Below, in pieces: positions 36,984 to 40,846 of a stretch of DNA of 64,000 nt. The position numbers were made by a program, and so were the translations under genes. Numbering within the stretch: position 1 is the stretch's first letter; each line of letters starts with the position of its first letter. The notes beneath the pieces are model-generated. The model did not search any database, had not been told where the DNA came from, and saw nothing but the letters and a program-made list of their open reading frames with translations. The DNA comes from Halopiger aswanensis (GTDB lineage Archaea > Halobacteriota > Halobacteria > Halobacteriales > Natrialbaceae): assembly GCF_003610195.1 (NCBI RefSeq), contig NZ_RAPO01000003.1, forward strand, positions 1-64,000. Direction: 5' to 3'.

Positions 36984-37907
36984 GTGTACGTACTGACCCG
37001 ACTCGAGGAACTGCTCGCGGCGTACCTGACGCTGCTGGACAACGTCGCGACATTTCTCTTGACGGCCCTCCTCGCGTACGCGGTCGGTCGCGTCGTCGTC
37101 CTCCCGCTGCTCGGACTCGCGATGGACTACCGCGGGACCGAGCGGACACTCCGCGAGGGGCTCGAGCAGGTCGCAGCCGCCGGCGTCATCGTCGGCGCGG
37201 TCGTCGTCGGGCTCTGGATCGCCGGCCTCGACTTCCTCCTCGAGCGAGCGGCGATCCTCGTCGCCGGGTTGACGGTCGCGCTCGGCTTTGCGGCGCAGAA
37301 CGTCGTCGGCAACTTGGTCAGCGGCGTCTTCATCGTCACCGATTCGACGTTCAATATCGGCGACTGGATCCGCTGGTCGGAGCAGGAGGGGGTCATCGAG
37401 GACATTCGCTTCCGATCGACGCGGGTCCGGACCTTCGACAACGAGGTGATCACGGTGCCCAACTCCGAACTGACCGCGAACGCGGTCACCAACGCCGTCC
37501 TCAACGAACGGCTTCGGCTGACGGTCCCCGTGTCGGTCAACTACGACGACGACCTCGAGACAGTTGCCGCGGTGCTCACGGACGCGGCGGACGACCACCG
37601 CGATATCCTCGAGCACCCCGAGCCGACTGTCCGTATCGCGGACCTCGGCGACACCGTCGACGTCGTCGCGGCCTTCTGGATCGCCGATCCCGACCGCGAC
37701 ACCTACGCTCGAGTCCGGTCGTCGTACGCCCGCGAGATCGTCGACCGCCTCGATGCCGCGGGGATCGATCTGGGGCAGGCGAATCCCCAGGCGCTCGAGG
37801 GAGAGATCGGCGTAGTACCGCCATCGGAAGTCGCGTCAGAATGGGGCCCGGCGTGGCTTTCGACCGCCGAGTCGGGATCGGAGGCGTCGGAATCCGACGT
37901 CTCGTAG
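36984..37907 (+). CDS. Small-conductance mechanosensitive channel, MscS family
   Basis: 307-residue membrane channel that opens under membrane tension, protecting against hypo-osmotic shock. Seen: TM helices at about 17-38 and 55-76, the pore-lining TM3 with AGLTVALGFAAQNVVGNLVSGVFI, then the beta domain (DSTFNIGDWIRW, VEDIRFRSTRVRTFDNEVITVPNSELT motif) and a C-terminal alpha/beta part. The start is uncertain. GTG at 36984 is preferred (after it the sequence is hydrophobic and typical); a TTG at 36954 would add ten residues. It is convergent with a glutaredoxin gene. Confidence 0.92.
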   Translation: MYVLTRLEELLAAYLTLLDNVATFLLTALLAYAVGRVVVLPLLGLAMDYRGTERTLREGLEQVAAAGVIVGAVVVGLWIAGLDFLLERAAILVAGLTVALGFAAQNVVGNLVSGVFIVTDSTFNIGDWIRWSEQEGVIEDIRFRSTRVRTFDNEVITVPNSELTANAVTNAVLNERLRLTVPVSVNYDDDLETVAAVLTDAADDHRDILEHPEPTVRIADLGDTVDVVAAFWIADPDRDTYARVRSSYAREIVDRLDAAGIDLGQANPQALEGEIGVVPPSEVASEWGPAWLSTAESGSEASESDVS

Positions 37908-37913
37908 TCTGGT

Positions 37914-38150
37914 TCAGGCGTAGCTCGTCTCGAGGAAGTCGAGAATCCGCTCGGATTCGGCCATCGTCACGCCGTACTCCTCGTCGACGATGACCGGGAC
38001 CTGTCGCTGCCCGGAAACGCGCTTGACCTCGTCGCGCTCGGAGTGGGGCGCGTCGACCCAGACGCTCTCGTAGTCGATGTCGAGCTCCTCGAGTCGGTCG
38101 GCGACGGCCTCGCAGTACGGACAGCCGTCGAGCTGGTACAGCGTTACCAT
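37914..38150 (-). CDS. Glutaredoxin-like thioredoxin-fold protein
   Basis: 78-residue redox protein. Seen: LYQLDGCPYCEAVADRL with the CPYC active site at the N-terminus, VPVIVDEEYGVTMAESERILDFLE with the cis-Pro and the GSH-site-like helix. Length and layout are those of glutaredoxins and of the N-terminal domain of glutathione transferases. Haloarchaea use gamma-glutamylcysteine, so the thiol partner is inferred. ATG at 38150. Convergent with the MscS gene, 6 bases apart. Confidence 0.9.
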   Translation of the reverse strand: MVTLYQLDGCPYCEAVADRLEELDIDYESVWVDAPHSERDEVKRVSGQRQVPVIVDEEYGVTMAESERILDFLETSYA

Positions 38151-38272
38151 AGGCGCCCGTTCGCGTCGAATCGACAAAAGGGTAGGTGCCCGCGTTACAC
38201 CAGGGTTCGTACGTAGCCTCCGATCGTCCGACGAATACCCTCCATCTCGATACAGCGAGCACCCCTGGCCCG

Positions 38273-38312
38273 CTTTAAGTGTCTCTGGTCACAAGGTGGA
38301 GCTATGACGGAG
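38273..38312 (+). repeat. TTTAAGT element, copy 1 (array A)
   Basis: First of six gap-free copies of a ~40-base element. It begins CTTTAAGT (TATA-like), continues with CTGGTCACAAGG at positions 14-25 region and ends AGCTATGACGG. Its first 32 bases are identical to copy 6 (39860-39891). An ATG lies at the predicted start of transcription (38304), 24 bases after TTTAAGT, opening a ten-codon micro-ORF that reads MTEECRFSW (38304-38333). Confidence 0.85.
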
Positions 38313-38393
38313 GAGTGCCGGTTCTCGTGGTAAACTTCACTTCTAGTGTCGACTCCGGCGTTCGACGGGCCCGCCCACCGCGAACCCGTATCG

Positions 38394-38433
38394 CTTTAAG
38401 TGCCTCTACTCACAAGGAGTAGATACGACAGGA
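38394..38433 (+). repeat. TTTAAGT element, copy 2 (array A)
   Basis: Second copy, 121 bases after copy 1. It is the most diverged in the middle: TCTACTC, ACAAG, GAGTAGA forms a perfect 7-base-pair inverted repeat that the other copies lack. The position of the start codon of copy 1 is ACG here, so it is noncoding. It is followed by GAAG-TT-CTTC, a small inverted repeat. Confidence 0.8.
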
Positions 38434-38527
38434 AGTTCTTCAGCCGAATTTTCCTCTTCGGGTTTCGTCGCTGCCAGCGACAGCTAATTCGAACGACGGT
38501 CAGCACCTGACCTCGACCCCGTTGTTC

Positions 38528-38567
38528 CTTTAAGTGCTTCTGGTCACAAGGTAGAGCTACGAAGGGA
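38528..38567 (+). repeat. TTTAAGT element, copy 3 (array A)
   Basis: Third copy, 134 bases after copy 2 and 97 bases before the rlaP ATG, so it is also the likely rlaP promoter with a leader of about 65 bases. It is followed by the palindromic GGGAGA-T-TCTCCC (38564-38576), shared in shortened form with copy 5. ACG replaces the start codon. Confidence 0.85.
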
Positions 38568-38624
38568 GATTCTCCCGGTCCTCGCTGTCTTTTCCGCAGG
38601 GCGTGCCGTAATCTCGGTCAGTAC

Positions 38625-39554
38625 ATGGTAGCCGTTCCGGACCGCGTCCGCAAACGGATCGACGAGCAACTCACGTCCCTCGAGCAGCGCCACGACATCA
38701 CTGTCGCGTTCGCGGTCGCTCGCGGCAGCCACGCGTGGGGCGCTGCGAGCCCGAAGAGCGACTACGACGTCGGCTTCGTCTACGTCCCCGACGACCTCCG
38801 GACCTACGCGCACCTTGAAGGGGCGAGCGAGACGATCACCGAGAGCCGCAGCGATGTCGAATATCAGGGCTCGAACGTCCGCAAGTTCGCACAGTTGCTC
38901 GCCGACTCTAACGAGGGCGCGATCGAGCTCCTGCGGAGCCCGGTTCGGTACCGCGTCGCGTACGACCCCGCCGACCTAACTGATTACGTCACGCGCGCGT
39001 ACAACCCGATCGAGTGCTACCACGACTGGCGGGCGATCGCCGCAAACAACTACCGGAAGTACCTCTCGGACCACCTGGTCCGCAGCGACGACGCGATTTT
39101 CCCGATCCTCGAGCGGACCGAGGACGGGTACGTCGTCGAAGCGGACGACAGCAACGCCGAGACGGTGACGATCGCAGCCGACGACGAGCGCTTCGAGGAA
39201 ACGCAAACCCGGCCCACAGTCAAACGGAATCTCACCGTTTACCGTGCGGCGATGTACGCCCGCTACCTGAAAGAAACCGGGGAGCGGGGTGGCCACGACC
39301 TGCCGGCGATCGACTTCGGAGCGTTTCTGGCTGAACAGGCACCCTCCGTCTTCGACCCCGATCGAATCGATCGGGCGCGGGTGCTGCTCGAGCGGAAACG
39401 TCGCGGCGAGGGTGGCGTCCGTGTCGACGATCAGGTCGGGCGCGAGTTCGCCCACCCGCCGAAGCAAATCGATCCTGCGGTCCACGCGCGGGAGGGCCCT
39501 GATCACGAGCGATTGAACGCGTTCATCGACGACGTAATCGCAGCGGTTCGATGA
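38625..39554 (+). CDS. RlaP-family RNA-repair nucleotidyltransferase (PF10127-like)
   Basis: 309-residue cytosolic DNA-polymerase-beta-fold nucleotidyltransferase. Seen: the active site VARGSHAWGAASPKSDYDVGF, with Gly-Ser at 34-35 and the metal Asp pair at 46 and 48, then the family block GSNVRKFAQLLADSNEGAIELLRSPVRYR (two stretches), NYRKYLS and the C-terminal RNLTVYRAAMYARYL, DLPAIDF. These match the RlaP/YcgL family that accompanies RtcB-type RNA repair operons in bacteria. An extra segment (about 149-201) sits between NYRKYLS and the last helices. No rtcB, slipin or Ro gene is adjacent. The gene is flanked on both sides by arrays of a repeated promoter-like element. Start ATG 38625. Substrate unknown. 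Confidence 0.85.
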   Translation: MVAVPDRVRKRIDEQLTSLEQRHDITVAFAVARGSHAWGAASPKSDYDVGFVYVPDDLRTYAHLEGASETITESRSDVEYQGSNVRKFAQLLADSNEGAIELLRSPVRYRVAYDPADLTDYVTRAYNPIECYHDWRAIAANNYRKYLSDHLVRSDDAIFPILERTEDGYVVEADDSNAETVTIAADDERFEETQTRPTVKRNLTVYRAAMYARYLKETGERGGHDLPAIDFGAFLAEQAPSVFDPDRIDRARVLLERKRRGEGGVRVDDQVGREFAHPPKQIDPAVHAREGPDHERLNAFIDDVIAAVR

Positions 39555-39604
39555 TCGGGCCCCTCGCCGATGGCGGACGCACCAGTCGCCGACCGTCGAC
39601 GCTC

Positions 39605-39644
39605 CTTTAAGTCACTCTGGCCATAAGGTAGAGCTATGACGGGA
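39605..39644 (+). repeat. TTTAAGT element, copy 4 (array B)
   Basis: First copy after rlaP, beginning 50 bases from its stop. It reads CTTTAAGT, then CTGGCCATAAGG and GAGCTATGACGG. Like copy 1 it has ATG at the predicted transcription start (39636), opening a 22-codon frame that begins MTGGRRFSRS (to 39704), similar at its start to the micro-ORF of copy 1 (MTEECRFS). Confidence 0.85.
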
Positions 39645-39724
39645 GGTCGTCGTTTCTCACGTTCTCAGCTCAGTAGCAATGGCCATCAGGAGGTCTCACT
39701 GTGAGTATCGGTGTCCTCGGCCCG

Positions 39725-39764
39725 GTTTAAGTAGTGCTGGTCACGAGGCAAAGATACGAAGGAG
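39725..39764 (+). repeat. TTTAAGT element, copy 5 (array B)
   Basis: 120 bases after copy 4. It reads GTTTAAGT, CTGGTCACGAGG, then AGATACGAAGG. It is followed by GGAGA-T-TCTCC (39761-39771), like copy 3. The spacer after it (containing GTCGCTGC, TACGAC, TCGAACG words) resembles the spacer after copy 2. Confidence 0.8.
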
Positions 39765-39859
39765 ATTCTCCCGCGCGCTATCCTCCGTAGTCGCTTGTCC
39801 GTCGCTGCTACGACTACTACGTCGAACGTGATTTGATACGCCCGATCATCGCCGGCGTT

Positions 39860-39899
39860 CTTTAAGTGTCTCTGGTCACAAGGTGGAGCTACGAAGGGC
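39860..39899 (+). repeat. TTTAAGT element, copy 6 (array B)
   Basis: 135 bases after copy 5. The first 32 bases are identical to copy 1. ACG stands at the start-codon position, followed by AAG-GG-CTT. It lies 171 bases before the RNA polymerase epsilon gene, which has a TTTATT box of its own (39963). Confidence 0.85.
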
Positions 39900-40030
39900 T
39901 TTTCGAGACGACTCCTCCGATCGATCAGCGACGGTACTCTCGTCGATCACGGATGATTGCGGTTTATTCGTAGAGACCCCGCAGAAACGAGCGAGCCTTT
40001 TTCCGTCTCCCTGTCTGAGCGAATACCAAG

Positions 40031-40846
40031 ATGAGAGACGACGGTTCCGAACCCGGTCCGGGCGGTCCAGACGGTGTCGGCCGCGACGCGGCCGTCGCCG
40101 ACGAGTACGGCGACGAGTCGTACGGAGCGCCCGGCACCGGCGTCGACCCTGACCCCGAACGCCGCCTCGAGACCCGTCCCGGGTCCGGATCGCTCTCCCG
40201 CGCGGACGTCCAGCGCGACTCGACGGTCCGCCAGTGGGGCGTCGTCACGCCCAGCGCGACCGTCATCGGTCGTCCCGAGTCCCCCGACGCGGACCTTTCG
40301 GAGAGCGTCCGCCGCCTCCACGACGAACAGCACGCGGCGACGCCGGGCTACAGCGAGCGCGCCCACCGGCTGGACCGACTGCGAACGACTCAGGCGCTGT
40401 GCAACGCCCTCGAGGTGACGCCGTGGCAACGGGACCTCGCGCTCGGCGTCATGGACGAGATCGATCTGACGGCGTTCGGCAGCCAGCGCGCGATCGAGAA
40501 GGTCGCGCTGGTCGTGATCCGTCACGTGGTCGACGTCGACCGGCGCTCGTACTTCGGGCTGGACGACATCGACGCGCAGGCGCTGTCGGCCGACCGCATG
40601 GAGGAACTGTTCGCTCAGTACCGCGCCCACGACATCACCGAGGAGGAGACGTTCAAGAAGCTCGCCGCGAAGTACGGCCTCGATACAACGAGCCTGAACC
40701 GGCTCCGGCGCGTCCTGAAGGAACAACTCGAGGACGAACTGCCGGCCTACGGTCGCAACCCGTACCGCGACCCGAACCTGCCGGGCGTGACCGACCGCAA
40801 CGAGTCCCCGAACCCGGCCGACGAGGCCGACAGCGAACCGGCCTGA
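40031..40846 (+). CDS. rpoeps: DNA-directed RNA polymerase subunit epsilon (haloarchaeal)
   Basis: 271-residue protein. Seen: a disordered Gly/Asp/Pro-rich N-terminus (about 1-55), the VQRDSTVRQWGVVTPSATVIG segment, a cyclin-fold-like helical core (LRTTQALCNALEVTPWQRDLAL ... AIEKVALVVIRHVVDVD) and a C-terminal helical region with FKKLAAKYGLDTTSLNRLRRVLK. It matches the family annotated in haloarchaea as RNA polymerase epsilon. The core resembles a TFIIB cyclin repeat, so a role in transcription initiation is inferred. Start ATG 40031. It follows array B on the same strand. Confidence 0.85.
   Translation: MRDDGSEPGPGGPDGVGRDAAVADEYGDESYGAPGTGVDPDPERRLETRPGSGSLSRADVQRDSTVRQWGVVTPSATVIGRPESPDADLSESVRRLHDEQHAATPGYSERAHRLDRLRTTQALCNALEVTPWQRDLALGVMDEIDLTAFGSQRAIEKVALVVIRHVVDVDRRSYFGLDDIDAQALSADRMEELFAQYRAHDITEEETFKKLAAKYGLDTTSLNRLRRVLKEQLEDELPAYGRNPYRDPNLPGVTDRNESPNPADEADSEPA

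Follow-up and report, generated by a model that had tools for sequence, protein, structure and literature searches.

The element array in Halopiger aswanensis

The DNA analysed here, hereafter the window, is a stretch of 64,000 nucleotides from the genome of Halopiger aswanensis. On its plus strand it carries six ungapped copies of a short element, three located 5' and three 3' of a gene for an RlaP-family nucleotidyltransferase, and the last copy is followed by the gene for RNA polymerase subunit epsilon (rpoeps). The features are as follows:

38264..38316, + strand: element 1, putative promoter; TTTAAGT at 38274-38280, conserved block at 38284-38296, presumed start A at 38304
38385..38437, + strand: element 2; TTTAAGT from 38395, presumed start A at 38425
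38519..38571, + strand: element 3; TTTAAGT from 38529, presumed start A at 38559; 66 nt 5' of the RlaP start codon
38625..39554, + strand: RlaP-family nucleotidyltransferase gene (PF10127), inside the array; same-strand elements also lie around RlaP in related loci
39596..39648, + strand: element 4; TTTAAGT from 39606, presumed start A at 39636
39716..39768, + strand: element 5; TTTAAGT from 39726, presumed start A at 39756
39851..39903, + strand: element 6; TTTAAGT from 39861, presumed start A at 39891; 140 nt 5' of the epsilon start codon
40031..40846, + strand: gene for RNA polymerase subunit epsilon (rpoeps), with a predicted single cyclin-box, TFIIB/TFB-like fold; proposed trans-acting factor for the elements

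The original prediction had described six gap-free TTTAAGT copies of an element of about 40 bases. Their number and the lack of gaps stand, while each copy begins one base later than first given and the conserved stretch actually extends from -40 to about +12 when 354 copies are aligned. The spacing of the window copies repeats, with 121 and 134 nt on one side of RlaP and 120 and 135 nt on the other, and the spacers between the elements are unlike one another. Tandem Repeats Finder reported no repeat for the array because the likeness is confined to the elements themselves. In profile searches the window copies were recovered with E values of 1e-11 to 1e-15. Scanning the 4.87 Mb genome with a 34-base degenerate pattern, allowing up to 3 mismatches, yielded ten matches, namely the six window copies and four more, and the reversed pattern yielded none. 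Of the four additional copies, three are located next to MptA on contig C6 and the fourth on C4; RlaP is near none of them.

Anatomy of the element

An alignment of 354 element copies from many genera, comprising single copies as well as tandem arrays, showed that the bases around a fixed A are conserved without gaps from -40 on, fading past about +12, with the stretch from the TATA box to this presumed start free of gaps throughout. From 5' to 3', the element consists of an upstream CC, a BRE-like YC, TTTAAGT at -30 to -24, TCTGGTCACAAGG at -20 to -8, AG[CA]TA[CT]GA around the presumed start and finally GGGA. The TATA box is centred about 27 bases 5' of a purine start, as in archaeal core promoters, and the A is invariant in all 354 elements. 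Judged from sequence, this geometry is the one of archaeal promoters, except that the bases from TATA box to start are conserved to an unusual degree. The earlier view that each copy looks like a core promoter whose start is fixed agrees well with this ungapped register and with the spacing of TATA box and A, which suits archaeal promoters. Further, the conservation goes far beyond the needs of an ordinary promoter and suggests, as had been proposed, a bound protein and small RNAs.

Among the matches listed in a scan of a genome collection, all of at least 120 stretches belong to the class Halobacteria, and the element seems to represent a new promoter class that is haloarchaea-wide. Its -9 to +5 half occurs in two main variants. 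Type II/III promoter variants read ACAACGG...TAGTGAG, a mixed element of the GTAAG type occurs in family f14, and the Halobacterium salinarum element upstream of rpoeps reads TTTAAGT-GGTTCTGGCGACAAGGAGTAGATACGA (L234, 780-813). The literature searched (TTTAAGT, haloarchaeal tandem sRNAs, rpoeps) held nothing relevant beyond a 2021 annotation paper, and the literature searched contained no description of a promoter class, a regulon or small RNAs for epsilon.

Co-distribution of element and subunit epsilon

Using 292 Halobacteria genomes with a completeness of at least 90%, the presence of elements and epsilon was determined. Model R1 detected type I elements in 105 of the 292 genomes. Epsilon genomes with no R1 match carry the variant TTTAAGTNNTTCTCGYSACAACGGTTCRTAGTGAGG and its relatives, either before the epsilon gene or elsewhere, and models R1 and R2 together found elements in 122 genomes. 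All 122 encode epsilon, which is present in 123 of the 292 genomes, and elements were found in none of the 169 epsilon-less ones. The sole epsilon genome without an element (G196) encodes a distant epsilon-like protein with 39% identity. The constant partner of the element is the gene for the RNA polymerase epsilon subunit. Fisher's test gives p 1.7e-83 for this association, a statistic that ignores kinship and is unusable as a phylogeny-corrected one. On an RpoB tree of 30 genomes picked from mixed families, presence switches at least eight times, with element and epsilon always switching together; only three of these joint switches fall on well-supported branches, too few for significance (sign test p 0.25). 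The co-distribution is partly due to shared ancestry and to the adjacency of element and epsilon gene. In genus g63 (family f4), elements are located elsewhere in the genome and none was found upstream of the epsilon gene. Genus g12 offers a good natural comparison, with two species (G094, G123) that lost epsilon and all elements and sister species (G012, G223) that retain both.

The promoter variants agree more closely with the phylogeny of epsilon than with that of the species. The epsilons encoded in genomes that have type II/III promoters, 17 in number and drawn from families f1, f4 and f7, fall into a single clade (support 94/90, 96% of bootstraps), while the RpoB tree demands four changes of promoter type. 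Both promoter types occur within family f1 and also within f4, and the type goes with epsilon. These data bear on the idea that the -20 to -3 block is an operator of an unknown regulator, or a site for a special TFB, that has been inherited together with epsilon by chance. Haloarchaea carry many TFB genes, conservation from TATA box to start would suit an operator, and co-inheritance is not fully separable from cause. However, the match with epsilon is near-perfect across 292 genomes, also where the genes are unlinked, and the promoter variants follow the epsilon tree, which makes such a chance association distinctly improbable. Another co-inherited factor, for example a TFB paralogue, could still be the reader of the motif.

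RlaP and the array

Membership of the RlaP protein in PF10127 is clear (E 2.4e-29; score of 103 bits, family cut-off 23), and its sequence shows an SDYD nucleotidyltransferase motif. The product of 38625-39554 also matches the MntA adenylyltransferase antitoxin model, but only weakly and short of the cut-off of that model (E 2e-4). RlaP is located inside same-strand arrays in most Natrialbaceae examined, an arrangement that would suit the initial proposal that RlaP processes, guards or modifies structured RNAs made from the array, or that the array forms a unit resembling type III toxin-antitoxin systems. The association of RlaP with the array is genuine but subordinate. As a functional partner, RlaP was rejected based on its distribution across genomes: it is missing in 63 of the 122 element-bearing genomes (present in 59) and is found in 15 of 170 element-free ones. 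The window genome holds a single RlaP gene, yet also RlaP-free element copies on C6 and C4, and several genomes show the order MptA-array-epsilon without RlaP, so that the arrays do not always flank PF10127 genes. Type III toxin-antitoxin RNA arrays and RlaP RNA-repair operons are alike in having tandem units beside a gene for an RNA-related enzyme. They differ from the present case, where the repeats appear to be promoters with unlike spacers instead of near-identical RNA units, neither a toxin gene nor a ligase partner is found and the array also occurs where RlaP is missing. Given that each of the two, array and RlaP gene, is found in genomes lacking the other, and that no folding signal was detected (see below), we consider an RlaP-centred RNA system highly improbable.

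Some loci contain lipoprotein or ABC transporter genes inside the array instead of RlaP. Together with the RlaP-free arrays this makes RlaP look like one captured gene of several and like a later arrival in an older array. In one genome (G020; L061, 4292-10855), two element clusters flank RlaP and an ABC transporter gene pair between epsilon and MptA, a layout that shows repeated gene capture into one array.

Short RNAs or mRNA promoters

Downstream of the presumed start, an AGCnRC motif peaks at +30 to +49, clearly over the upstream background, so the presumably transcribed part carries a signal too. At its flexible distance, the motif could be a protein site or a pairing site. The structured RNA that had been suggested as an alternative to a bound protein was not borne out: minimum free energies of +0..+34 and +0..+64 were not below those of shuffled sequences (mean z -0.02 and 0.02). 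Two further candidates were rejected. Small hairpins visible by eye in some copies, such as GGGAGATTCTCCC at element 3, do not generalise to a conserved fold, and a small peptide encoded from the ATG of CTATGACGG onwards is contradicted by the many copies with ACG or ATAG at this site and by third codon positions that do not vary. Rfam 15 covariance models gave no match in window positions 37500-40500, and in three further loci only a tRNA and a sub-threshold match, both away from the elements. In genus g7 (L339, L340, L350), strong hairpins of 7-9 bp follow the elements (GACGCCGAC-GTG-GTCGGCGTC and variants), often with T-runs near +45, a picture compatible with short, terminated RNAs.

In all 45 measured loci an element lies 32-125 nt before RlaP, and in 71 loci one lies 37-299 nt before epsilon (some loci are counted twice), with the start codons at a median of 61 and 146 nt past the nearest element, respectively. 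The elements share their strand with both genes. Such placement favours an explanation in which the elements are tandem promoters of the downstream protein genes epsilon and RlaP, acting for example in positive feedback on epsilon, and not small-RNA genes. However, the epsilon gene often has its own TATA-like box about 30 nt 5' of the ATG (GGATTTATT in case of Halobacterium salinarum), genus g63 has elements of which none precedes epsilon, and the AGCnRC motif sits in the part that would be transcribed. Some of the copies away from epsilon, RlaP and MptA likewise argue against mRNA promoters. Using crude gene calls, none of 61 such unlinked copies was located inside a called gene and 22 point into a convergent gene end, where no mRNA is possible; another 28 precede a gene at a median of 170 nt and 11 precede another element. 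Based on this placement and on epsilon's own TATA-like box, most elements are best read as short RNA genes, and we consider tandem mRNA promoters a rather unlikely general explanation. RlaP and some other genes may nevertheless be read from an element.

Identity and predicted fold of subunit epsilon

Since the 1980s, haloarchaeal RNA polymerase has been known to include a subunit epsilon. The product of window positions 40031-40846 is homologous over most of its length to four plasmid-encoded proteins annotated as 'DNA-directed RNA polymerase subunit epsilon', with 56-61% identity, and belongs to the same family as haloarchaeal epsilon (rpoeps, OE_1279R). A homologue is encoded in Halobacterium salinarum DSM 3754 (L234), and this species carries both element and epsilon. 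Epsilon is reported to be a physical part of the purified Halobacterium polymerase, and on native templates polymerase with epsilon transcribes efficiently while polymerase without it does not; the subunit is restricted to some haloarchaea and its role was called enigmatic in 2021 (PMC8305020). Since elements are found only in epsilon species and the epsilon gene adjoins the array, the repeats hint at what this role may be.

An AlphaFold model of epsilon is confident at residues of about 107-230 and poor at the N-terminus. Alignment of model residues 106-237 with the first cyclin repeat gave Z scores of 9.5-10.5 for TFIIB, Brf2 and archaeal TFB. Helical folds easily reach middling Z scores, cyclins score as well as TFIIB against the cyclin-box model, and the best E value in a Foldseek search was only 0.2. 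The Pfam TFIIB family (PF00382) had no match in 31 epsilon homologues up to E 1, and comparison with haloarchaeal TFB profiles was not significant (hhalign probability 0.2%). Epsilon is predicted to contain one TFIIB/TFB-like cyclin box; unlike TFB, TFIIB and Brf2, it would have only this one and matches neither the Pfam TFIIB family nor the TFB profile. In TFIIB and TFB, the first cyclin repeat is located downstream of the TATA box. The conserved block of the element would occupy this very place, a correspondence that is suggestive only. Brf2 serves TATA-containing promoters of small RNAs.

A proposed role for epsilon

The explanation that we regard as reasonably probable is that epsilon is a sigma- or Brf2-like promoter-specificity subunit, that the array groups together several of its promoters, from which short RNAs are made, and that RlaP was captured in the Natrialbaceae. 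TTTAAGT would be bound by TBP, perhaps together with TFB, while epsilon-bearing polymerase would read the -20 to -3 stretch downstream of the TATA box; the recognition block of the promoter would span -20 to -8, and a second block, from -4 to +12, would cover the start site. Transcription would then begin at the conserved A, a fixed purine. We infer that most copies drive non-coding RNAs about 50-70 nt in length, in which the 5'-most dozen bases are conserved and AGCnRC follows 30-50 nt in, and that this transcription depends on epsilon. Copies are located either alone in intergenic positions or as tandem sets 5' of the epsilon gene, and the latter arrangement suggests feedback on epsilon. In the Natrialbaceae, the array would in addition have acquired RlaP; with an element about 60 nt 5' of its start, this gene is probably a member of the regulon as well.

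More tentatively, though still as a serious possibility, epsilon may be a dedicated specificity subunit that reads its own promoter class downstream of the TATA box and drives a small-RNA regulon, with epsilon and promoter having co-evolved into distinct specificities. If this model is right, epsilon would resemble bacterial alternative sigma factors as a polymerase-bound factor with a dedicated, co-evolving promoter motif, but would differ from them in its unrelated fold and in acting together with a TATA box. The archaeal polymerase would gain a sigma-like specificity subunit, the closest archaeal counterpart of sigma factors, and haloarchaea would gain an unannotated small RNA gene family with up to about 15 members per genome. 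An enigmatic polymerase subunit is thereby given a concrete candidate function, as the element supplies candidate target promoters for epsilon and its natural variants predict which epsilon reads which promoter.

Epsilon genes are additionally found on the haloarchaeal plasmids NZ_CP100002, NZ_CP044526, NZ_CP096020 and NZ_CP095010. Some genomes of family f6 (G260, G266, G224) carry three or four epsilon-like genes, and different epsilons might therefore read different promoters.
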